A stretch of 47,179 nucleotides of DNA from Bacteroidota bacterium (GTDB lineage Bacteria; Bacteroidota; Bacteroidia; M30B66): positions 1 to 47,179 of the forward strand of contig CANHIS010000019.1 of assembly GCA_947460255.1 (NCBI GenBank). Direction: 5' to 3'. The translations under genes and the position numbers were made by a program. Below are positions 1-12,700 of this stretch, piece by piece. How positions within the stretch are numbered: position 1 is the first letter of the stretch; the number at the start of each line of letters is the position of its first letter. The notes beneath the pieces are model-generated. The model saw only the letters and a list, made by a program, of their open reading frames with translations. It was not told where the DNA came from and made no database searches.

Positions 1-349
1 ACTAGGGGAACTCTGGATAGAATAAATCTATTCATCTCATTGCATCCTTCATTTATTTTTCTGAATGAAAAGCAAAAGACTACCGAATGTTTTTGCCATT
101 ACTTGCATAGAAAATCACATTAGGATAGACAAGTATTGCTTTGTTGAGATTGAGATAAATCGATTACAAGACAATTTTGAATTCTGTTTAGGTCCAAATT
201 GAATTTCTTTCGAAAGCGATATAAATGTTTATGATTAACCAAAAGGACAATCTGTTTATTCAACAAACGTCCTTTTGGTAAGCTGAAAGAAAATCAAGGT
301 TTTTGATTTTGGGTTAAGTTGAATAGAAGAGAACCGACATAAATCGTGT
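1..349. other. Gene-free left edge
   Basis: No open reading frame with coding character is visible on either strand in this AT-rich stretch. The only structured element is the 11-bp inverted repeat at 238-279, annotated separately. A gene may lie beyond the left edge, but nothing inside the window shows it. Confidence 0.6.
238..279. terminator. Stem-loop downstream of ssb
   Basis: ACCAAAAGGAC at 238-248 is exactly complementary to GTCCTTTTGGT at 269-279, with a 20-nt loop. It lies about 70 nt beyond the stop codon of the leftward ssb gene. The T-rich part is inside the stem and no long U tract follows, so this may be a weak terminator or an mRNA 3' stabilising hairpin. The inverted repeat is certain; the terminator role is inference. 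Confidence 0.5.
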
Positions 350-694
350 TTAGGCGTTTTTCTTATTTCCTGTTTTCAAGATTTCATTTGCATTGATTTC
401 AGTGATATATTTTTTAATGCCTTCCTTGTCGGTGTAATTTCGATTAATCAATTTGCCCTCAACAACAATTTCATTGCCTTTTTCTAAGTATTTCTGAGCG
501 AAATCAGCTTGTCGCCCCCACATTATAATATTATGCCACTGTGTTTCGCTCACAGGATTCCCTTCAGCATCTTTGTATTTTTCTGTTGTCGCTAAGCTAA
601 ATTTTGCAAGCTTTTTGCCACTTGTGAGTTCTTTGATTTCTGGATTTCCGCCTAAATTTCCGATCAGGCGAACTGAATTTCTTAAGTTGTTCAT
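350..694 (-). CDS. ssb: Short single-stranded DNA-binding protein (SSB paralogue)
   Basis: This 114-residue protein is a single OB fold of the bacterial SSB family. It opens with MNNLRNSVRLIGNLGGNPEI and contains the family blocks KLAKFSLAT (about 29-37), WHNIIMWG (about 53-60) and the KGNEIVVEGKL strand. SSB coats single-stranded DNA during replication, recombination and repair. It is shorter than a housekeeping SSB (usually 140-180 residues) because it stops straight after the OB fold at LKTGNKKNA. The flexible linker and the acidic DDDIPF-type tip that recruits partner proteins are both missing. Short tail-less SSBs are common as second copies in Bacteroidota chromosomes and on mobile elements. 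The gene stands alone, and a 10-bp palindrome lies 29 nt upstream of its start. Family membership is secure; its being an accessory copy is inference. Confidence 0.93.
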   Translation of the reverse strand: MNNLRNSVRLIGNLGGNPEIKELTSGKKLAKFSLATTEKYKDAEGNPVSETQWHNIIMWGRQADFAQKYLEKGNEIVVEGKLINRNYTDKEGIKKYITEINANEILKTGNKKNA

Positions 695-795
695 GGTTGT
701 AGTTCATTTGAGTTGAAAAAGAGGTGCGCACCCTGTTGTTCCGATTATCAATTGACACTGCAATGATACAGGGGCATTTTTGGTTTATCCGGCAA

Positions 796-836
796 TGAAA
801 CGGTTATAAACGATTATAAACGGTTAAATCGGATAT
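796..836 (+). repeat. Left copy of 41-bp inverted repeat, 10-bp phased
   Basis: Three consecutive 10-bp units are visible at 801-830: CGGTTATAAA, CGATTATAAA and CGGTTAAATC. The 41-bp segment reappears in inverted orientation at 4205-4245 with about 34 of 41 positions matching by eye. One unit per helical turn suggests a protein-binding array. A transposon end is the alternative, but no transposase is present between the copies. Confidence 0.7.
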
Positions 837-984
837 TTTAAAATAAGTAGAATTGAAATCAATTTACTGAAATCAAATGAATCTTTTAATTTCAGTGACT
901 TATGAGAATTAAATGGCTTATCAGGGATTGTAAACTTAATTTTAAATGCCGTAAAAGTTGATTAAATTTTACAAATATTCCTTT

Positions 985-1002
985 GTTGTGTTATAATACA
1001 AC
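985..1002. promoter_or_regulatory. Near-perfect 18-bp palindrome, candidate operator
   Basis: GTTGTGTTATAATACAAC matches its own reverse complement at 16 of 18 positions. It lies 74-91 nt upstream of the zinc-finger gene start, a normal operator distance. The central TTATAA core also occurs in the 10-bp repeats nearby. The palindrome is seen directly; that it binds a regulator is inference. Confidence 0.4.
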
Positions 1003-1075
1003 TTAAAATAGGTGTAAATATCTATGTTATGAATATGTTAATAGTTATACTTTCGAATCAAATCATAAATCTTCA

Positions 1076-1441
1076 ATGATGAATATTGAACCTAATAAGT
1101 GCATTGAGTGCGACGAGGTCATAATTGGACGCATCGATAAGAAGTATTGTAGCGATAGTTGTAGAAGTTCGCACAATAATAAACGTAGAGTTTTGAATCA
1201 ATCTAATGTCAAGAAAGTTAACATGATTCTTGTAAAAAATCGATCGATCTTGTATGATTTAAGTATACGCTTTCAGGAAGATTCTGTAATCACTACCTTC
1301 CAACTGAAGCTCATGGGATTTGATTTTGCATTTTTTACCCATCAAACAACCGACAGGAGAGGTAGATTGCTTTTCTTTTGTTACGACTTTGGTTATCAGC
1401 AATTAAATGGTAACAAAGTCAAAATCATTAGGAATATCTAG
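1076..1441 (+). CDS. Small zinc-finger protein (DUF2116-like, Bacteroidota type)
   Basis: This 121-residue protein has an N-terminal zinc ribbon: CIEC at about 9-12, then CSDSC at about 25-29 followed by RSSHNNKRR. I recognise the arrangement (Cys-x2-Cys, a GRxDKKYCSDSCR block, then Asn/Lys-rich residues) from a widespread, uncharacterised Bacteroidota family usually annotated as DUF2116-containing or hypothetical. The rest has a short basic helix (VKKVNMILVKNRSILYDL) and a beta-rich tail ending in an FFCYDFGYQQL block. The function is unknown; small zinc ribbons of this kind may bind nucleic acid or proteins. There are two adjacent ATGs (1076 and 1079) and either could start the protein. The stop lies 5 nt from the stop of the convergent gene at 1447, leaving no room for a separate terminator. 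Confidence 0.85.
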   Translation: MMNIEPNKCIECDEVIIGRIDKKYCSDSCRSSHNNKRRVLNQSNVKKVNMILVKNRSILYDLSIRFQEDSVITTFQLKLMGFDFAFFTHQTTDRRGRLLFFCYDFGYQQLNGNKVKIIRNI

Positions 1442-1446
1442 GTAAA

Positions 1447-2760
1447 CTACCAAGTGTATCTAACTCCACAAAACAATCCAAATTGGTTTTCATAGATTTT
1501 CCAATTGGGATGTTTCATTAAATATGTTCCTCTCACAGAAGTACTACCCTCGGTATAAATTGAGAAGGTATCGCTCAATTTGTATGCAATATTAATACCT
1601 GGTCTTAATGCCCAAATTCCTTTTCTAAAGCCTGATACGGGATAGCTAATTGAGTGATCACCTGCTTGAAAGAAAGTGCTCACATCACGCAATTGCATAT
1701 ACTCTGCCTGCAAAAGTGCTCGAAAGTCCCAATGTTTAAAGTCATTTATTGCATAAGTAAATCCAAGTCGGTAATGCGTGTATTTCATCCTGTGCAATAA
1801 CCGAACATCACTTTCACCTGGATTCTCGTTTAATATCTCCGAAACATCGTTGGAGTTTGTGATTTCATTGAATTGAAAATTTGTGCTCATATAAACTTGT
1901 GCATTTTGACCAGCAGTTGCTATCGTTTCATCTACAACCAATCTAGCTGCTGATGACCATTCGTTTGCTGATAAACCAAAATTCATATCTATAGCCCAGT
2001 TTTTCGTCAGATTATATTGCACACCGACATTAAATTGTTGCCCCTTTTCTGCTCTAAATGAAACCGTGTCTGCATGTGGATTTGCCATGATTAGATTTTG
2101 ATCGAATATCCCGTAGCCTGCATAAATGCTGAATAGTCGATAAGCCTTATCTAGTTGTTTTTCGGTAAAATCTCCAGTTATTGGCTCAATATTGCTAGTG
2201 ACAATCGAAACATCCTCCAGTTCATTTGATTCAAGTTTTGCAGGAACCGGATTCACCCAATTGTGAGAGAATTTTTGTTGATTGGCTAACTCTTCTGATG
2301 TAGGGATATAATCTTCTTTTACGTTTGGATTGCTTACTGAATTAATCTCGAACTCAGAATTTTCAATCGAAGGCTTGTGTACATCGAAAAGTCTTTCTGG
2401 TTTCGCAATTGGGGATGTTGATTCAGTGTATATCGGCTTTAACGCCGGTTTTGATTGTGACTTTGAAATGGGGGATTGGACTTCCCTTTTTCCTTCGTCA
2501 TTCTTCAATGCAAGTTTGTCTGACTGTGAGGAATTCAAAACGTGTTGATTTTCAACAGTATTCGTGAAGAAATACAAGCTACCGCTAGCAACTAAAATCG
2601 TAATCGCCACGCTAAAGCTCCAGAAGTAAATGGCTTTGCGTTTGTTTCCTTTGTTTAGCGATGATTCTATCTTTCCCCATACCGCTTCTGGGGCTGTGGT
2701 TTCGCCATTCTTGACCTTAGCTACAAGATCGTTGAAGCGTTTGTTTTGATTTTCCATCAT
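1447..2760 (-). CDS. Inner-membrane-anchored beta-barrel-like protein, putative anti-sigma partner
   Basis: This 437-residue protein has three parts. Residues 1-42 are cytoplasmic, with an anti-sigma-like start (RFNDLVAKVKNGETTAPEAVWGKIESSL). A single membrane helix spans about 43-65. A long Ser/Pro/Glu-rich linker (about 66-205) leads to a C-terminal beta-rich domain (about 207-437) with strand-like alternating blocks such as LFSIYAGYGIF, FNVGVQYNL and FGLFCGVRYTW. It ends in an aromatic residue, as outer-membrane barrels often do. Its start overlaps the stop of the sigma-factor gene (ATGA, 4 nt), so the two are translationally coupled. The layout is that of an ECF sigma factor and its membrane regulator, which in Bacteroidota can be fused to an outer-membrane-like domain. 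The anti-sigma role is inference from position and N-terminal shape. No HHCC zinc anti-sigma motif is seen. Confidence 0.75.
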   Translation of the reverse strand: MMENQNKRFNDLVAKVKNGETTAPEAVWGKIESSLNKGNKRKAIYFWSFSVAITILVASGSLYFFTNTVENQHVLNSSQSDKLALKNDEGKREVQSPISKSQSKPALKPIYTESTSPIAKPERLFDVHKPSIENSEFEINSVSNPNVKEDYIPTSEELANQQKFSHNWVNPVPAKLESNELEDVSIVTSNIEPITGDFTEKQLDKAYRLFSIYAGYGIFDQNLIMANPHADTVSFRAEKGQQFNVGVQYNLTKNWAIDMNFGLSANEWSSAARLVVDETIATAGQNAQVYMSTNFQFNEITNSNDVSEILNENPGESDVRLLHRMKYTHYRLGFTYAINDFKHWDFRALLQAEYMQLRDVSTFFQAGDHSISYPVSGFRKGIWALRPGINIAYKLSDTFSIYTEGSTSVRGTYLMKHPNWKIYENQFGLFCGVRYTW

Positions 2761-3308
2761 GCAATCCTATATTTTGCAGGGAGATGCTCTTCCTGTTGAA
2801 TGAATTTTTGAAGAAGTGCGCGTGCTCTTGCGAACTGACTTCTTGAAGTACTTTCTGAAATTCCCATCATTTCGCCAATTTCTGCATGATCATAACCTTC
2901 AATTGCGTATAAATTGAAAACGGCTCTGTATCCTGCAGGAAGTTTAGCGATAAGATTAAGAATCATTTTTTCGTTTAAATTGTCTGACGCATCTAAGTGA
3001 AGAATAAATTTTCTCTCATCTATTTCTTCAGTTAACTGCATTCTTTTGTTTTTTCTTAGCCACTGAAGAGCAGTATTTACTGTAATTCGCATCGACCAGC
3101 CCATGAAATCTCCACGTTCGTCGTACTGACTAACTTTGGTTAGGATGGTGATAAATGAATCGTGTAAGATGTCGGATGCGTCTTCAGAGTTAGGTGCATA
3201 CCTCAAACAAATGTGATACAACCGGGCAGAAATCGTCTCATAGAGAATTTTTTGAGCTTCTCTTTTCCCACTCTTGCAGGCATCAATCAATGACTTACTT
3301 ATCTGCAA
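2757..3308 (-). CDS. ECF-type RNA polymerase sigma factor
   Basis: This 183-residue sigma-70 family protein directs RNA polymerase to a stress or envelope regulon. Region 2 covers about 20-88, with EDASDILHDSFITILTKV and the promoter-melting part GWSMRITVNTALQWLRK. Region 4 covers about 115-170, with LPAGYRAVFNLYAIEGYDH and the helix-turn-helix HAEIGEMMGISESTSRSQFARAR. The frame contains no ATG before about residue 68, although the family's N-terminal helix is clearly encoded (ISKSLIDACKSGKREAQ), so translation most likely starts at TTG (3308). An in-frame stop lies a short way upstream. The downstream overlapping gene is its probable membrane-bound regulator. No promoter matching the Bacteroidota consensus was found in the 110 nt upstream. 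ECF sigma factors often read their own promoter, which could explain this. Confidence 0.93.
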   Translation of the reverse strand: MQISKSLIDACKSGKREAQKILYETISARLYHICLRYAPNSEDASDILHDSFITILTKVSQYDERGDFMGWSMRITVNTALQWLRKNKRMQLTEEIDERKFILHLDASDNLNEKMILNLIAKLPAGYRAVFNLYAIEGYDHAEIGEMMGISESTSRSQFARARALLQKFIQQEEHLPAKYRIA

Positions 3309-4204
3309 ATGCTTGACGATCTGTTTTCAGACTCTTTTTGTTGTTGTGTATTTTTATAATGGCAATTTCTTCATAGTTTAAAGATGAAAAGTGCCTAAAA
3401 GGCGCTGCATGAAGATAAACTTTTTCTACAATCTAATTTTGATCTCTTGCCAATTTTAAGTGTTACGAATCGGATTTATTGAATTTTACAGTTGATTTTA
3501 ATTTTTTGCTGTACGTGAAACGCGTAAGATATTGATTATGTTATCATTGCAAAACGACTTCTTTTTTCTCTTTGGGAGTCGGATGTTTTTTATCTTTTTA
3601 ACGTGCACATTACTAGATAACTAAGTATTGGTAGTCTTTATTTGTCATCTGCTTGCTTTCAACCTGTAATGGTAATGATATCAATTTTTTCGCTGAGTGA
3701 ATATGCGATATTGAGACTTTGCTGCTGAAAAATTACTAAACGCTGATAAAATTTCTTGCTGGTTTGGAGTGAACGTATGTATAGGCTTTCAGTTTTTTTT
3801 AATGTTTACTGCATAAGATCATCTTAAGATGCATATATAGAGGCATTTGAAAAAATGTTCTTTCGTTTTTATGTTGTAGTCTTCGTTTACTTGTAAGTTA
3901 TAAGTTTCATATAATTAGGTATTTAGTAATCTTTTAAAGTGCTTGGTTTTTTACATTTGTTTAATTGACGCTAGATACCCTGAAAAAACTTCAATAATTG
4001 ACTTGAGAATTCTGTAAGGTTATGGTATTGAGATATTTGAATTTACATCATCATAGCAAAATGCTATTGTTTTTATATACACTTCTTTGATCAGTACTTT
4101 TCACTTTAATGTTTGCTTGTAAGCTTCAAATGTTAATAGAATCTCCATTGCAGCTAACTTCTCTGGATCAATGTGCTGTTAAAATTGGGTTTAAATAACT
4201 TCCC

Positions 4205-4245
4205 ATATCCGATTTATTCGATTATAATCGTTTCTAATCGGTTAA
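4205..4245 (-). repeat. Right copy of 41-bp inverted repeat, 10-bp phased
   Basis: On the plus strand the 10-bp units are GATTTATTCG, ATTATAATCG and TTTCTAATCG (4211-4240). They are the reverse complement of the left copy at 796-836; the first 12 aligned positions are identical and about 34 of 41 overall. The two copies face each other across about 3.4 kb that holds the zinc-finger and sigma-factor loci. Confidence 0.7.
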
Positions 4246-4280
4246 TTCTTTTTCGAATAACTTGAATGTCCGAAATTTGA

Positions 4281-4308
4281 TCTGGGGTCAGAGGGAACTG
4301 GCCCCGGA
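4281..4308. repeat. GC-rich stem-loop in AT-rich spacer
   Basis: CTGGGGTCAG (4282-4291) pairs along its whole length with CTGGCCCCGG (4298-4307), counting two G-U pairs, around a 6-nt AGGGAA loop. An extra T-A pair closes the base. There is no following T run, so it does not look like an intrinsic terminator. A GC-rich imperfect hairpin isolated in AT-rich DNA resembles REP-type elements, but only this one copy was seen in the window. Confidence 0.5.
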
Positions 4309-4430
4309 CAGAAAGAATCCTAATCAGCTTATTGTCATTGATATAAATCTTTAGTAGTTTCATCAGATATCAATAATCATTTTGTGAATTGTAAAATCGA
4401 CAACAACAAAAGTAACTCAGTGTTAGCCCC

Positions 4431-4460
4431 TTGTTTTCCTGATGGCCTTTCTTATATTTG
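4431..4460 (+). promoter_or_regulatory. Promoter of the riboswitch-metH transcript
   Basis: TTG at 4431-4433 is followed after 19 nt by TATATTTG at 4453-4460, an exact match to the Bacteroidota TAnnTTTG -7 element with normal spacing to the -33 element. Transcription would begin around 4464-4467, some 15-18 nt before the first base of the SAM riboswitch. The agreement of promoter, aptamer start and gene makes this the best-supported promoter in the window. Confidence 0.75.
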
Positions 4461-4481
4461 CCGAAAGTTCATTGAAGTTTA

Positions 4482-4580
4482 CTTATCCAGAAAGACCGAG
4501 GGAATAGGCCCTTTGACGTCTTGGCAACCCCTTTTTAAGTACGGTGCCAATTCCTAGTCCCGTTCTTGGGAGCAGATAAG
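4482..4580 (+). ncRNA. SAM-I (S-box) riboswitch
   Basis: The element has the conserved SAM-I blocks in order: P1 5' strand CTTATC (4482-4487), CCGAGGGA (4496-4503), TAGGCCCTTTGA (4505-4516), TTGGCAACC (4521-4529), ACGGTGCCAATTCC (4541-4554), and P1 3' strand GATAAG (4575-4580). These form the kink-turn and the S-adenosylmethionine pocket. When SAM is plentiful the aptamer lowers expression of the methionine synthase gene 74 nt downstream. No strong intrinsic terminator follows P1; there is only a 4-bp GGCT/AGCC hairpin (4601-4611) before ATTTTT. The switch may therefore act on translation or through a weak terminator. The aptamer call rests on a clear consensus match; the mechanism is open. 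Confidence 0.95.
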
Positions 4581-4654
4581 CATGAATTCATTCCGATTCA
4601 GGCTGCCAGCCCCAATTTTTCTGCTAAGCATTACTTCGACATTTAGATTCGACT

Positions 4655-7600
4655 ATGTCCGTACTGCAAGAACAATTAAATAAAAGAATTTTGGTGCTCG
4701 ATGGTGCCATGGGAACAATGATTCAGCGTCACCAATTGGAAGAGGAAGACTTTCGAAAAGGGCATTTTGAAAACCATCAACATTCTTTAAAAGGCAATAA
4801 CGATTTATTAGCCCTCACGAGGCCTGAAATTATTCGCGGAATTCACGAAGAGTACTTCGAAGCAGGCGCCGATATTGCCGAAACCAATACCTTTAGCGCT
4901 ACAAGTATTGCTCAGGCTGATTATCACCTCGAACATATTGTGTATGATCTCAATGTAGCTGCGGCTAAATTAGCCAAACAAGCAGCTGATAAATACACTG
5001 CACTAACGCCTGAAAAACCTCGATTTGTAGCTGGTTCTATCGGACCAACAAACAGAACCGCTAGTATTTCTCCAGATGTAAATGATCCTGGATATCGCGC
5101 AATTACTTTCGATGAACTTGTGGAGTCATACACCGAACAAGTTCGCGGCTTGATTGATGGCGGTGTAGATATTCTTTTGGTGGAAACGGTTTTTGACACA
5201 CTCAACGCGAAAGCAGCATTGTTTGCGATTGATAAGTTCTGTGAAAAAATAGGTCGTAAAATGCCTGTAATGGTTTCAGGAACGATCACAGATCAAAGCG
5301 GTAGAACATTAACTGGGCAAACTGCTGAAGCGTTTTTGTATTCCGTGTCTCACATCGATCTATTGTCGGTTGGTTTTAATTGTGCTCTTGGTGCTCGCCA
5401 GTTGCGTCCTTATGTTGAAACATTGGCCAAGAATTCCAAATTCAGGATTTCAGCGCATCCAAATGCTGGTTTACCAAATGCTTTTGGGCAATACGACGAA
5501 ACTCCAGAGCAAATGGGGGCTCAAATCCGAGAGTATCTCGACAACAACATTATTAATATTATTGGTGGATGCTGCGGAACTACTCCTCCTCACATCAAAG
5601 AGATCGCGCGCATAGCGGCTGAATATAAGCCGCACCAAATTCCAGACCTCGAGCCGATGCCATTTTACTCCGGTTTGGAGCCCGTTACCATTCGCCCTGA
5701 AACTAACTTTGTAAATATTGGCGAGCGAACCAATGTAACAGGATCAAGAAAATTTGCCCGATTGATCACGGAAGGAAACTACGAAGAAGCCCTTACCGTT
5801 GCGCTTCACCAAGTGGAAGGTGGTGCTCAAGTACTCGATGTGAACATGGATGAGGGCATGCTCGATTCTGAAGCTGCGATGGTTCGTTTTCTTAATATGA
5901 TGGCCGCTGAGCCAGATATTGCGAAGCTTCCAGTGATGATCGACTCTTCAAAATGGAGCGTTATCGAAGCCGGATTGAAATGCGTGCAAGGGAAGTCGAT
6001 TGTTAACTCGATTTCACTGAAGGAAGGCGAAGAAAAATTTATCGAACAAGCTTCCTTGGTGAAACGCTACGGCGCCGCAGTGGTTGTTATGGCTTTCGAT
6101 GAGCAAGGGCAAGCTGATTCCTTCGAACGAAGAATCGAAATCGTGCAACGCGCTTACAACATCCTCACCCAAAAAATTGGTTTTCCGGCTACAGACATCA
6201 TTTTCGATCCTAACATCCTAACTGTAGCAACAGGAATTGAAGAGCATAACAATTATGCAGTAGATTTTATCAATGCCACAAGATGGATCAAGCAAAATCT
6301 GCCTGGATGCCGCGTTAGTGGGGGTGTTTCTAATATTTCTTTCTCTTTCAGAGGAAACGACCATGTTCGCGAAGCGATGCACAGTGCATTTCTGTATCAT
6401 GCTATCAAAGCTGGTCTCGACATGGGGATTGTAAATGCTGGACAGCTTGAAGTGTATGAAGAAATTCCCAAAGACCTACTCGAAAGGGTAGAGGATGTAC
6501 TCCTAAACCGTAGAAATGATGCCACTGAGCGATTGGTAGAATTTGCTGAAACGATTAAATCAAAAGGGAAAGTTCAAGAGAAAGATGAAGAGTGGAGAAA
6601 AATGCCAGTTAAAGCCCGACTCTCTCACGCTTTGATCAAGGGAATTGTTGAATACATCGACGAAGATACCGAAGAGTGCCGTCAGCTGTTTGATCGTCCA
6701 CTTCAAGTAATTGAAGGTCCTTTGATGGATGGGATGAACATAGTAGGTGATTTATTCGGAACGGGGAAAATGTTTTTGCCTCAAGTGGTGAAGTCTGCAC
6801 GTGTAATGAAAAAGGCTGTAGCTTATTTGCTTCCTTATATAGAAGCTGAAAAGCAAGCTGGAGGTTCTAGCAGTAACGGTAAGATTTTGATGGCAACTGT
6901 GAAAGGTGATGTGCACGATATCGGTAAAAATATCGTTGGCGTGGTGCTTGGTTGTAACAACTACGAAGTGGTTGATATCGGAGTCATGGTGCCCTATCAG
7001 AAGATTCTAGATACAGCCAAAGAAATCGGAGCTGATATTATTGGCCTAAGTGGATTAATTACTCCGTCGCTGGATGAAATGGTTACTGTGGCTAAGGAAA
7101 TGGAGAAGCAAGGATTTAAAATCCCATTGCTAATCGGTGGTGCTACTACTTCAAAAACCCATACAGCTGTTAAAATTTCTCAGTTTTACTCGGGACCTGT
7201 AGTACACGTTTTGGATGCTTCCCGATCTGTTCCTGTGGCTGGTTCTTTGTTAAATCCAGAGCTCAACGGTGCGTTTATGTCGGAGCTTGATGCTGAATAT
7301 CAGAAAATTAGAGAACAACATGCTGGCAGAACAGCAACCAAAGAATACTTGAAGATTGAGGACGCTCGAAAAAACAAAACTCAAGTTGTATTCAAACAAG
7401 AATATTCTCCAAAGCCTAGTTTTACTGGCGTGAAAGCATTCGAAGCATACGACTTAGCTGAACTCGCAAAGTATATCGATTGGACGCCTTTCTTCGCCAC
7501 ATGGGAATTGTACGGAAAGTATCCAGCGATTCTTGAAGATGCCATTGTAGGTGAAGAAGCAAGCAAAGTTTTGGTAGATGCACAGCGGATGTTGAAACAA

Positions 7601-8341
7601 ATAATTGATGAGAAGTGGCTCACTGCCAATGCTGTAGTTGGAATTTGGCCTGCAGCTTCAATTGGCGATGATATCGAAATTTATACAGACGAATCGAGAA
7701 GTTCCATCCTTAATACAGTCCACAATCTTCGTCAACAAAACAAGAAAACTGCTGGCCAATCCAATTACTGCTTGAGCGATTTTGTTGCACCGAAAGGTTC
7801 TGAAGTGAAGGATTATGTTGGAGGCTTTGCAGTAACTTCTGGAATTGGAATTGAAGAACACGTAGCGCGTTTCGAAGCTAATCATGATGACTACAGTGCT
7901 ATCATGTTGAAGGCCTTGGCTGATCGACTTGCTGAGGCATTCGCAGAACGACTGCACCAACGGTTCAGGATGGAATTGTGGGGATATGCTTCAAACGAAA
8001 CGCTGTCGAATGACGAATTGATCACCGAAAAATATCGTGGTATTCGTCCTGCGCCAGGTTATCCAGCCTGCCCAGATCACACCGAAAAAGGTTTGTTGTT
8101 CGAAATCCTTGATGCATCAAAACTTACTGGAATTTCACTCACAGAAAGTTACGCAATGTATCCAACTGCAGCGGTAAGTGGCTGGTATTTCGGGCATCCA
8201 GAAAGCAAGTATTTCGGATTAGGTAAAATAGAGCGCGACCAAGTTGAAGATTATGCGCAAAGAAAGGGTTACTCTTTAGAAGAGATGGAACGTTGGTTAA
8301 GTCCAGTATTAGCTTACGAACCTTCAACTATTAATGCCTAA
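4655..8341 (+). CDS. metH: Cobalamin-dependent methionine synthase, full length
   Basis: This 1228-residue enzyme transfers a methyl group from 5-methyltetrahydrofolate to homocysteine through cobalamin, in the cytoplasm. All modules are present in one chain. The homocysteine-binding barrel covers about 1-325, with zinc ligands Cys243 (GFNCALG) and Cys306-Cys307 ([10 protein letters not shown]). The pterin-binding domain covers about 350-640 ([14 protein letters not shown]). The cap and cobalamin-binding domain covers about 645-890, with the base-off motif GDVHDIG at 751-757 and lower ligand His754. The C-terminal activation domain, which binds SAM, covers about 900-1228 and ends in [18 protein letters not shown]. 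Length agrees with E. coli MetH (about 1227). The ATG fits the homology start. Control is through the SAM-I riboswitch upstream, so the reaction product's derivative shuts the gene off. Confidence 0.98.
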
Positions 8342-8355
8342 ACAATTCATTTCAT

Positions 8356-8390
8356 GGCCGGGCAACTCATTGAGATTGTCCGGCCTTTTA
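8356..8390 (+). terminator. Intrinsic terminator of metH
   Basis: GGCCGGGCAA (8356-8365) pairs with TTGTCCGGCC (8376-8385), ten pairs including one G-U, with a 10-nt loop, and is followed by TTTTAATTTT. It lies 15 nt past the metH stop, so the riboswitch-metH transcript is monocistronic. Confidence 0.85.
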
Positions 8391-8451
8391 ATTTTAATGA
8401 ATTGATTGAAGTAATATTTATACATTCGATTTCTGCTTCTCTAACAACATC

Positions 8452-9321
8452 ATGATTCGTTATAATCCAAAGGAATCCTTTCTAATTATATTTCAGTTTC
8501 ACAAAGCTGATACTTTTAGGAAGCTACTTCCGATGATAATTATTATTGGAATTTATTCTGCATTTATCGCTTGGCTTGAAATTTCTGTTTGGCAATTGAG
8601 TGATACTAGTCATGTTAAGAATTTATCAATCATTCATTCTACACTCGGCCTTGTAATTTCTCTACTGTTGGTTTTTCGCACCAATACTGCTTATGAACGT
8701 TGGTGGGAAGGCCGAAAAATATGGGGTAGTTTGGTTAATTCTAGTCGGAATTTAGCTTTGAAAATTCAAGCTATCTGCCCACAAGAAAAAATGTATTATC
8801 GAACCATGATTCCTAATTATGCTTTTGCATTGAAGAATCATTTAAGATCGGAAGTTAATCTAGATGAAATACTGGATTGTGAAGGCTTTGAATCGATTAA
8901 AATTAATGTCGAAAAACACATTCCCAATCAAATTGCTTTAAATATTGTAGCACACACAGTAGCACTCAATAAATCCAATGTTATTGGGAATGAGCACTTG
9001 TTATTTCTAAACCAAGAATTATCCAATTTCACTGATTGCGTTGGCGCCTGTGAAAGAATTAGAAAAACACCCATACCATTTTCTTACTCGGTATTTCTTA
9101 AGAAATTCATTTTTCTTTATGTAATTACCTTGCCCTTTGGATATGTTTTTTCTTTAGGATATTACGTTATTCCAGTGGTTTCTATCTTCTTTTATGTACT
9201 GGCAAGCCTTGAATTGATCGCCGAAGAAATTGAAGATCCTTTTGGAAAAGACGCAAACGATTTGCCTACCGATGCCATTTCCGAAGGCATTAAAAATAGT
9301 ATAAATGAAATTCTCGAATAA
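8452..9321 (+). CDS. Bestrophin-like membrane channel (UPF0187 family)
   Basis: This 289-residue membrane protein carries the hallmark of bacterial bestrophin homologues: the block FRTNTAYERWWEGRKIWGSLVNSSRN at about 75-100, after two hydrophobic helices (about 25-45 and 60-77). A second hydrophobic pair lies at about 212-258, just before LIAEEIEDPFGKDANDLP, which matches the conserved acidic end of the family. Homologues form pentameric ion channels in the cytoplasmic membrane. In bacteria studied so far they tend to conduct cations, unlike the anion-selective animal proteins. Length is typical. The gene starts 61 nt after the metH terminator and is followed 17 nt later by the NTF2-like gene. 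Physiological role unknown. Confidence 0.9.
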   Translation: MIRYNPKESFLIIFQFHKADTFRKLLPMIIIIGIYSAFIAWLEISVWQLSDTSHVKNLSIIHSTLGLVISLLLVFRTNTAYERWWEGRKIWGSLVNSSRNLALKIQAICPQEKMYYRTMIPNYAFALKNHLRSEVNLDEILDCEGFESIKINVEKHIPNQIALNIVAHTVALNKSNVIGNEHLLFLNQELSNFTDCVGACERIRKTPIPFSYSVFLKKFIFLYVITLPFGYVFSLGYYVIPVVSIFFYVLASLELIAEEIEDPFGKDANDLPTDAISEGIKNSINEILE

Positions 9322-9338
9322 ATTAAAATAATTATTCC

Positions 9339-9692
9339 ATGACAACTCAAGAAATCGCGAATCGCTTAGTGGAACTATGCAGAGCAGGAAATAATCTTCA
9401 GGCTTATGAGGAGCTTTTTTCAGAAGATGCAATTGCGGTAGAACCCGAACACACCGGTATTCCAGACGCGATCGGTCGAAATGCAATGATCGAAAAACAA
9501 GAAATGATGGCCATGATGATTATGGAAATGTTTGGAACTGGCGTTTCTGATCCTATCGTTTCCGGTAATTTCTTTTCTTGTGCCATGTGGATCGACGCTG
9601 AAATGCTTGGAAGAGAGCGGTCTAAACTGGAAGAAATTGCAGTTTATCAAGTAAAAGACGGCAAAATCGTGAAGGAAATGTTCTTCTTTTAA
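9339..9692 (+). CDS. SnoaL/NTF2-like domain protein
   Basis: This 117-residue single-domain protein has the cone-shaped NTF2-like pattern: an N-terminal helix pair (TTQEIANRLVELCRAGNNLQAYEELFSEDAIAVEP), a helix with DAIGRNAMIEKQEMM, then strands ending ERSKLEEIAVYQVKDGKIVKEMFFF. The closing block (YxVxDGKIVxExFFF) is the usual SnoaL-like C-terminal hairpin. Members include isomerases, hydrolases and ligand-binding proteins; the substrate cannot be told from sequence. It sits 17 nt after the bestrophin gene and could share its transcript. Confidence 0.85.
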   Translation: MTTQEIANRLVELCRAGNNLQAYEELFSEDAIAVEPEHTGIPDAIGRNAMIEKQEMMAMMIMEMFGTGVSDPIVSGNFFSCAMWIDAEMLGRERSKLEEIAVYQVKDGKIVKEMFFF

Positions 9693-9754
9693 TCTCTATC
9701 AAGCAAAAGAATGGGTTTTATCACCTGTTTATCTGTTCAATAATTTTTAAATTA

Positions 9755-12700
9755 ATGAAGCATCTCAGTTTTTTGCTGTTTTTATTCCTAAGTTTTACAG
9801 CATTCGCCCAGTATTCGTATCCCGAACCACGCATAAATCCCAATGATCCTTCATTGCCAGAGTGGGTTCAAGAAATGTATTCTGAAAACCCTGATGTTTA
9901 CAAGGTTGATCGCTTAAGAAATCAATATTTTGAGCAGAATAACAATCAGCATGATGTTTACACGCGATGGTACAAACGCTGGAGAAGATACATTGCTCCT
10001 TTTGTTTCCGACAATGGCAGGATCTCAATTCCAACTGCAGCAGAAAGGCTTCAAGAAGCTTCAATAATCAATAAAAGTTCTTCACGCGATGTCGGATCTT
10101 GGAATTATCTCGGTCCAAAAAATCACTTGAATGTTAAGTACGACAGCAACGACAACCACGTGCTAATCTCCGATCATTCTAATGTGTATTGTTTCGAAAG
10201 ATGTACTTCGAATCCAGCTGTTTTTTATTGTGGAACCGAATCTGGAGGCGTTTACAAATCGATCGATGCAGGCCAAAATTGGAGTTATGTTTCCAAAGGT
10301 CTTTCTGTAGAAAGTGTTACAGCGATTTCCGTTGACCCAACAAATCCTGATGTGGTAATTTTTTCATCCGCTGATGAAATCTGGCGTTCTATTGATGGCG
10401 GTTTAAATTGGAATATCGTTGGTAATTCAGGGTTTCAAGCATTGAACATTGAAGTATATCAATTCAATTGGCATCCATCGAATAATCAATTGGTGTTTGC
10501 AGCTACGAATCTTGGTTTGTATCGCAGCAACGACAATGGTTTGAATTGGACGCAGGTTTTCAGTGGAGAGAGCATGTCGGTGGAGTTTAAACCAAGTAAT
10601 CCGCAAATTATGTATGCTTTGCGTTACAACACGGTGACTCAAATTGCTGATTTTTACAAGTCTGTTGATGGTGGAAATTCATTCACTATCCGCCCGCAGG
10701 GCTGGTTTCAAGTACCTGCCGCAGATGCTGGTTTGATTGAAAGTCGTGGCGGAAGAATTGCTGTTACATTGGATAATCCCGAACGTGTGTATGTGTTATT
10801 GGTTGGATCGAGTGAAGCCTCTGCCCAGCTGCAACTGCGAGGAACCATTGGAGTATATTCTAGCGCGAATGCTGGAGAAAATTGGACATTTCCACACGTA
10901 TTACAAGGGATGCCTTACAACCAGCAAACTCATCCCAATTTGATGGATTTTAATGGTGAATCTTCAACATACAACCAGATTTACTACAATACTGCATTCG
11001 CTTGCTCTCAATTAGACGAATCCCGTTTGTTGATTGGTGGTTTGAATCTTTGGAGAAGTGAAGATGGTGGAGCTTCCTACGCGCCAGTTGGAGGTTACAT
11101 TGGTGATCTTCCATTAATGCACGTTGATTTACAGGAGTTTAAGGCCTTCAAAACGTCTGCAACTACCGAAGAGTTTTGGTTTAGTAGCGATGGCGGACTG
11201 AATCTTTCCAACGACTGGGCTGCTTCTCACGTTGCAAAAACTTCTGGCCTTGGCGCAGTAAATTTTTGGGGAATGGATCAAGGTTGGAACGACGATATTA
11301 TTGTTGGCGGTCGCTACCACAATGGTAACGCTGCAAGCAACAATCTTTATGGTGTAGGCAATTTCCTCTCACTTGGAGGTGGAGAATCGGCTACAGGTTA
11401 TGTGAACTACAGTCCCGAACGTAGAACATTTTTCTCCGATCAAGACGGAATTGTAATCCCGGCTCAATTCGACGGAATAGCCACAAGGTTTTCGGTAGAT
11501 CTTTTTCCAAATGAAAGCTATTTCGACAATGCGTCATCGAGAATTATGTTCGACCCTTTTTACTGGAATATCGCATATCTCGGTAAAGACAATGTACTTT
11601 ACAAAAGTACCGATGGAGGCAGCTCATACGCACCGATTTATACCTTCGGAAACAATCCAGCCGATCAGGTATTTTGGATGGAACAATGTCCTACAAGTCC
11701 CAATGTTTTCTACGTTCAGCAAGTTGTTTCCAATGTTAGTCGACTTTACAAGAGTACCGATGGTGGTTTAACTTTTTCGCAAATTATCCTTCCGCAATCG
11801 CGGAGAGAAATGTACTTCTCGGTTCATCATGAAAATCCTGATATTCTTTGGATTGCATTCACTTCGGGAAGCAATGGAAATAAAGTTTATCGAAGCGATA
11901 ATGCTGGTGGATCTTGGACAAATATCACAACCACTGCGCTGAATGGCCAGTCTATCAAGGCTATATCGCATCAGGCTGGAACCAACAATGGAATTTATGT
12001 GGCTTGTAGACGTGGCCCAATGTTTTACCGTGATGCAGTTTTGGCTGATTGGGATCAAGTGGGAATAGACATGCCTGCTGCGTCTTATCCACTGCGCATT
12101 TTGCCTTTTTATAAAAAGAACAAACTCCGTTTGGGAATGTGGAATATTGGTGTTTGGGAAAATGATCTACAAACTACATCTTCAATAATTCCAGGATTTT
12201 CATCAAATTACCGAAACTTCACCTGTCCAGGAGATACAATTTGGTTCACGGATCATTCGGTAAGCCCTACGGAAGCCACATTGCAATGGAGTTTTCCAGG
12301 AGGAACGCCATCTTCATCTACTGAAAGAAGTCCTAAGGTAGTTTACAATACCACCGGAAGTTTTTCTGTTTCTCTCACCGTTACACACAATGGAAGTAGT
12401 GAAACCATCACCAGAGACGTGTTTATTGAGTCATTGCCTGGAAATTCTTCTGCACTTTCAGAGAATTTCGAACAAGGTGTGCTTCAAGCTGGTTGGCGCC
12501 TGTTCGACGATGGAAATGATGGAGAAGTATGGCGTGTAACTGATTTAGCTTCAAGTGGATCCGTAGGAGATGGAAGTCTATTTTTCGACAATTATTTCCA
12601 GGATGTTCAGGGGAAAAGAGATCAATTAATTACAGCAAATTATATTGTTTCGGATCAACAAGATGTTTCATTGTCGTTTGATGTTGCTTATTCGCGATAC

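Follow-up and report, generated by a model that had tools for sequence, protein, structure and literature searches.

A phased operator ahead of ssb, DNA-uptake genes and dispersed hairpin elements points to a probable competence regulon in Bacteroidota

The stretch of DNA analysed here (47,179 nucleotides, contig CANHIS010000019.1 of the Bacteroidota bacterium assembly GCA_947460255.1; hereafter the window) contains two inverted arms that bracket a zinc-finger gene, a sigma factor gene and the gene of its membrane partner. Both arms are probably operators of one competence and single-stranded-DNA regulon of Bacteroidota, which in this lineage would also drive many short hairpin transcripts. 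The left arm lies ahead of ssb, a gene for a short single-stranded-DNA-binding protein, and the right arm precedes a G-rich hairpin of a kind that is dispersed over the genome. The genome to which the window belongs (G000; 4.13 Mb in 246 contigs) was compared with relatives (G001 onwards) that are largely drafts or metagenome-assembled genomes (MAGs). Coordinates of the features are given in Table 1.

Phased units in register with the promoter

The two arms (794-836 and 4205-4247; 43 nt, 84% complementary, 3368 nt between them) form the longest well-matched inverted repeat in positions 1-12000. Within positions 1-6000 the pair is also the best ungapped inverted match; its score is 25.5, whereas 40 dinucleotide shuffles gave 13.7 on average and 15.5 at most. 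The inverted copies that the original prediction had placed at 796-836 and 4205-4245 were thus recovered far above the shuffled background, as were the other features it had described: the 10-bp units, and a segment holding a zinc-finger-like open reading frame (ORF), an extracytoplasmic function (ECF) sigma factor and a membrane partner. Both arms are runs of near-palindromic 10-bp units, CGnTTATAAn, and because the unit is near-palindromic, 'inverted' applies more to the flanks than to the core. Three things had escaped the original prediction: the -7 boxes, the G-rich hairpin and the many other copies in the genome. Outside each arm stands an outward-pointing -7 box; the left box is on the minus and the right box on the plus strand, and both promoters therefore point out of the segment.

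Each promoter is preceded by about three to six units. The final one, CGnnTA, has its place 23 bp before a -7 box of the form TAnn(T)TTG or, in some promoters, 33 bp before it, a distance greater by one unit; the Bacteroidota -7 consensus is TAnnTTTG. The register was tested on 48 protein-gene promoters (partly hand-chosen, comEC not among them) and 54 hairpin elements, by choosing the best-scoring -7 box regardless of its register and comparing the outcome with 2000 shuffles. Phases 3-4 held the best box in 36 of the 48 promoters (shuffles: mean 8.4, maximum 20) and in 40 of the 54 elements (mean 9.4, maximum 19). These phases were chosen after the fact, once an earlier count at phases 2-3 (12/48 promoters, shuffled mean 10.1; 32/54 elements, shuffled mean 11.1) had shown where the peak was; it falls at phases 3-4 because a 1-bp jog precedes the last unit. 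The count of distances is independent of this choice. CGnnTA stands at exactly 23 bp in 31/48 promoters, the next commonest distance being 34 bp (12/48), which is that of the neighbouring unit; among the elements 13 are at 23 bp, 11 at 33 bp and 7 at 34 bp. The functional distance between box and promoter that one would look for in a competence regulon was thus found. Binding of a protein along one face of the helix, as had been proposed from the spacing of the units, is supported by this fixed register.

Table 1. Features of the window, with the rows of the two arms and their promoters first
Feature	Position	Strand	Evidence and remarks
Left arm, phased operator of the ssb promoter	790..836	-	CG steps at 790, 801, 811, 821, 830; kept between ssb and the zinc-finger gene in relatives
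-7 box of ssb, TATCATTG	761..768	-	23 bp from the last CG unit; read from the sequence
ssb, short single-stranded-DNA-binding protein, 114 aa	350..694	-	PF00436, E 5.4e-32; TIGR00621 over cut-off
Right arm, phased operator of the hairpin element	4205..4247	+	CG steps at 4210, 4219, 4229, 4239; conserved in G001 between sigma and metH
Right -7 box, GAAATTTG	4272..4279	+	33 bp from the CG at 4239; read from the sequence
G-rich hairpin TCTGGGGTCAG - AGGGAA - CTGGCCCCGGA, presumed 5' end of the transcript	4281..4308	+	conserved in G001
Zinc-finger protein gene (treble clef, long helix, small sheet)	1076..1441	+	alignment with invariant Cys pairs; model with mean predicted local distance difference test (pLDDT) score of 88.9
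Membrane partner (anti-sigma) ORF	1447-2760		between the arms
ECF sigma factor ORF	2757-3308		between the arms

Genes that carry the operator

The left arm, judged from its sequence context, is an element of the ssb promoter that has been retained in this position throughout the class. The box that separates ssb from the divergent zinc-finger gene is clear in G000, G001, G003, G004, G005, G006 and G009, and degenerate in G007 and G008. The ssb leader has a feature of its own, a palindrome GGTGCGCACC at 723-732, of which most of the relatives compared carry a GGTGCACC-type version in the same place.

Four boxes of G000 have no hairpin. Besides ssb, they precede a comEA-like gene (L050; HHH_3, E 1.2e-34, and TIGR00426 over cut-off), comEC (L044; PF03772, E 7.5e-62, and TIGR00360 over cut-off) and a gene for an S23-like four-helix-bundle protein (L041; PF05635). 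The comEA box is also present in G003 and G004, and the box at the S23-like gene in G004 and G006. S23-like genes with the operator were seen in three genomes of two genera (L041, L105, L107).

A scan of 84,980 species genomes yielded at least 80 loci, holding 81 places. The matches listed come mostly from Bacteroidota (Cyclobacteriaceae, Pedobacter, Sphingobacterium, Saprospiraceae, Bacteroidales and others), with unrelated taxa in addition. Among these 81, the match is on the promoter side of ssb in 31, of the zinc-finger gene in 20, of either in 34 and of both in 17. Cultured strains with the box before ssb include Pedobacter suwonensis DSM 18130, Pedobacter steynii DSM 19110 and Sphingobacterium corticibacterium. 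Also among the matches listed, the box stands ahead of comM/YifB in one genome (L197), ahead of a tyrosine recombinase (L127) and before two Y1-like genes called by eye (L119, which has no Pfam match, and L130). A shared box before several genes for uptake or single-stranded DNA, a further mark of a competence regulon, is thus present: ssb, the comEA-like gene and comEC in G000, and comM in one genome.

Transposase genes of the Y1 (IS200-like) type have the operator ahead of them in two genera, and Y1-like genes have it in a third lineage (L236:1371-1403; L237:2050; L119:172; L130:184); L236, from G007, matches PF01797 with E 1.2e-20. This placement suggests a competence-linked transposition.

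The zinc-finger protein is single-copy in G000-G009 and was found in 27 of the 29 genomes of the class (G000 included) as opposed to 1 of 89 others, although three of these 28 matches extend over the finger only, namely those in G065 and G092 and the single one from outside the class. In four genomes (G069, G100, G123, G127) a box lies 19-87 bp upstream of a zinc-finger gene. Its divergent placement fits a local regulator, and the protein is our leading candidate for this role, which is unproven; it may equally well be a regulated effector. No fold match in the PDB was obtained for the model at E <= 0.001. A likeness to RPB9 was dismissed, the weak sequence matches (E 0.3) being taken as zinc-ribbon noise.

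Dispersed hairpin elements

The right arm belongs to a family of operators, which in G000 recurs at more than 15 loci other than the window. With a two-unit pattern and up to 3 mismatches, 35 forward and 40 reverse places were found in G000, compared with 6 and 4 for the reversed pattern; one site may count on both strands because the unit is near-palindromic. When up to 2 mismatches are allowed, the pattern CGNTTATAANCGNTTATAANCG matches 28 places and its reversal none; phasing as strong as this is not common in the genome, and the repeat is no product of a general A+T background. Nor is the repeat confined to this genome: four further members of the genus and one genome of another genus carry the family as well. 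Neither of the two findings by which the original prediction would have been refuted was therefore made.

About 29 hairpin-bearing copies of the element, which measures roughly 100 bp and has the hairpin at its end, are assembled in G000, at 17 intergenic places, those at contig ends being partial. The 17 places probably amount to 15 loci, since C86/C133 and C2/C43 look like the two ends of one array each. Tandem Repeats Finder reported arrays with periods of 287 bp (about 3 copies, C86), 159 bp (about 4, C109) and 202 bp (about 3, C108), and two-copy arrays have spacings of 267 bp (C44), 349 bp (C41) and 194 bp (C2). The contigs C86, C133, C2 and C43 end in or close to arrays; because contigs break there, the copy numbers are lower bounds. 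An integron attC array was considered and rejected, the arrays being tandem copies of one unit (159, 202 and 287 bp, with 91-96% matches) and not folded sites between different cassettes. A parallel expansion with another hairpin is seen in a Saprospiraceae MAG, HKST-UBA24, whose numerous operators, partly tandem (L164:4719-5300; L146:4083; L154:2014), lead into GTCAGAC-type palindromes and not into G-rich hairpins.

The sequence of the hairpin varies by class (A to H, labels of this analysis; F is the class of the window and G that of G002). It is G-rich on the RNA-like strand in 53 of 54 rows (the doubtful row being G007_C7b), with a median G4Hunter score of 1.28, and has a closing C run. 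Operator and hairpin also go together in an independent test, a search that starts from the hairpin: all 11 class-A hairpins in G000 adjoin an operator, and all 12 class-D matches, found in four of the 60 genomes searched, have an operator 56-67 bp upstream; over both classes the hairpin lies 53-67 bp after the operator. For the hairpin of the window the first 40 nt fold at -20.5 kcal/mol. Pairing of the outer GGG and CCC is kept across classes as judged by eye, with class A forming two competing alternative folds; a covariation count is not claimed, since MAFFT, given ten hairpins, lined up stems that do not correspond to one another.

When copies with unrelated downstream flanks were compared, the operator, the -7 region and the hairpin were conserved and identity fell to about 0.3 beyond about 30 nt (classes A, D and G); in class C conservation decays more slowly, and in class A it rises slightly at +50 to +59. 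Several class-A copies (for example L043:2700-2720) have, some 50 nt past the hairpin start, a stretch like CCAAATTAAGTTATNCAC, part of which resembles a DnaA box. The right element of the window is found in G001 between sigma and metH, with 107 alignable columns at 76% in a spacer that is otherwise mostly unmatched. Downstream of it, ahead of metH, the window carries an S-adenosylmethionine (SAM) riboswitch (RF00162, 75.4 bits, 4480-4582). None of the hairpin elements (15 loci and the window) matched Rfam 15, and a known RNA family was rejected on this ground. A coding leader was rejected as well: class G has an ATG able to start a short ORF, but the leader is not coding because an ATG is missing at that place in class A, and in G000 the reading frame of class D meets a stop after four codons.

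Competing explanations and known systems

In the regulon that we consider probable, a regulator would bind cooperatively along one face of the DNA and recruit RNA polymerase to promoters that have no good -33 box. Activation might occur when cells handle incoming single-stranded DNA, that is, during competence. The left arm would thereby control ssb, and the right arm would drive a short transcript that begins with the hairpin and of which about 29 copies are assembled. Since conservation is limited to the hairpin, we take the hairpin itself as the presumptive product, a small RNA supplied in many doses.

Several observations weigh against this interpretation. In G002 the zinc-finger gene lies elsewhere, without a box. 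The comEC promoter does not fit the geometry: it has no clean -7 box at 23 or 33 bp, and its spacer overlaps a terminator-like repeat. Among the 81 matches listed, 47 have no ssb and no zinc-finger gene nearby, and some of the 47 come from outside Bacteroidota; of these remaining places, those near unrelated genes or outside the phylum are what would be expected of chance matches. Mu-like phage regions also match the operator pattern (26 viral contigs, L344-L369; to judge by the proteins encoded nearby, many of these are Mu-like, and there the match is close to a protease-like gene). In none of these 26 contigs is the match beside ssb or the zinc-finger gene, and it is taken as an unrelated, separate motif of similar letters. 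Finally, only 1 of 43 hairpins has an intrinsic terminator in the interval from +20 to +160 nt, counted from where the hairpin starts (mean of shuffles 1.65), unlike usual small-RNA genes.

The scarcity of terminators would suit a cis-acting G-rich element. Regulated transcription would then open the G-rich strand, as an R-loop, a hairpin or a G-quadruplex in single-stranded DNA, and mark the chromosome for recombination in the manner of the pilE guanine quadruplex (G4), with the RNA product irrelevant. Past the -7 box only the G-rich stretch is conserved and not the sequence downstream, the G-richness is on the RNA-like strand in nearly all rows, and tandem arrays differ between relatives; the pilE G4 transcript likewise is reported to tolerate mutations downstream of the G4 (PMC3547852). 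Four G runs are not present in all classes, however (E and F have two to three), and the pairing kept by eye in hairpins of differing sequence also fits an RNA. We regard this explanation as unlikely. Quite unlikely, too, is a scheme in which the competence regulator switches on dozens of dispersed promoters that have a 5' G-rich hairpin as their only conserved product. Transcription through the hairpin would open the chromosome in cis, so that incoming DNA could enter or recombine at each element on induction; the elements would be a many-site counterpart, within the competence regulon, of the pilE G4 device of Neisseria.

The high copy number, the tandem arrays and the unconserved transcript bodies might also be expected if the boxes mainly titrated the regulator, the transcripts being by-products. 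Such a sink is improbable, since titration needs neither a -7 box in register nor a conserved hairpin.

It is very improbable that the elements are mobile repeats (of the miniature inverted-repeat transposable element or repetitive extragenic palindromic (REP) kind) with ends or a hairpin recognised by a transposase, the pair in the window being the two ends. The elements are indeed dispersed, multicopy and hairpin-bearing, Y1 transposases are present in G000, G001 and G002, and the box stands ahead of some Y1 genes (L236, L237). Terminal repeats would, however, come and go together, and G004 has the left box and the intervening genes but lacks the right element. The order in G004 is ssb, zinc finger, anti-sigma, sigma, two further ORFs and metH, which G003 shares as far as its contig extends; in G005, G006 and G007 it is ssb, zinc finger and metH. 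Because G004 keeps the genes and the left box without the right element, the arms arose separately and their facing each other is incidental. The ends of a non-autonomous mobile unit, offered as an alternative in the original prediction, are therefore not borne out by these gene orders, and a mobile unit with terminal repeats was rejected on the conserved order. No empty sites with a target duplication could be aligned.

The distribution of the elements points the same way. Nine element loci occupy corresponding places in G000 and G001: seven have matching flanking genes (C109, C86/C133, C175, C2/C43, C44, C6 and C76), and two more, C28b and the window, were matched by DNA. Going by flanking genes, none of the G001 loci compared was a partner of C41, C108, C95, C28a, C31, C39 or C28b, the last being the locus for which a DNA match was obtained afterwards. 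Hairpin elements also occur in G003 and G004, where no Y1 genes were found. REP sequences with their REP-associated tyrosine transposases (RAYT, Y1) resemble the elements in being dispersed, hairpin-bearing and sometimes tandem intergenic repeats; the Y1 genes of G000 are flanked by other palindromes, though, on which ground REP/RAYT was rejected, and the element described here includes a promoter.

Binding arrays of a nucleoid or replication protein, the other alternative raised earlier, would explain the helical phasing and perhaps the weak DnaA-box-like stretch of class A, but are scarcely credible given the fixed distance to the -7 boxes, the same genes preceded repeatedly in distant taxa, and copies located either ahead of a hairpin or in the promoters of particular genes.

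The competence regulons of model bacteria include those of Sxy/CRP-S, ComK and ComX. The regulon proposed here resembles them in having one operator before ssb, comEA, comEC and comM, and differs in its box and in its type of promoter. That operator provides a handle on the regulon, whose members become predictable by sequence and whose candidate regulator is adjacent, and it brings to light an extensive class of intergenic hairpin elements that would share the control of the uptake genes, with a function that can be tested. A literature search gave no description of the operator motif, and a search of the open-access literature gave none of the control of natural transformation in Bacteroidota. 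For the flavobacterium Riemerella, a helix-hairpin-helix protein, ComEC, DprA, ComF and RecA are reported to be needed for transformation (PMC8459023).

The csRNAs of streptococci, which CiaR controls, are similar in having a direct-repeat operator at a fixed distance from the -10 box, intergenic small-RNA as well as protein genes among the targets and a link to competence (PMC3091779). A repeat operator at a fixed distance from the -7 box in several intergenic loci was likewise found here. The csRNAs are reported to have terminators and to number two to six per genome (PMC3091779), whereas the present elements, in another phylum, have about 29 assembled copies of which only the 5' hairpin is conserved; a terminator within 250 nt, as judged from the +20 to +160 nt covered above (1/43), is not a feature of them, and we do not file them as of the csRNA kind because of this. 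The FopS RNAs of Bacteroides are also multicopy small RNAs in Bacteroidota, with 14 members (PMC11697453). They differ in their canonical promoters, conserved seed motif and regulation of polysaccharide genes, and no phased operator or tandem arrays are reported in the parts of that paper available to us (PMC11697453). The pilE G4 small RNA of Neisseria gonorrhoeae is alike in that its promoter starts a non-coding RNA at a G-rich stretch and the transcript downstream is described as unimportant (PMC3547852); it is a single locus serving pilin variation, whereas the elements described here are dispersed and share their operator with uptake genes.

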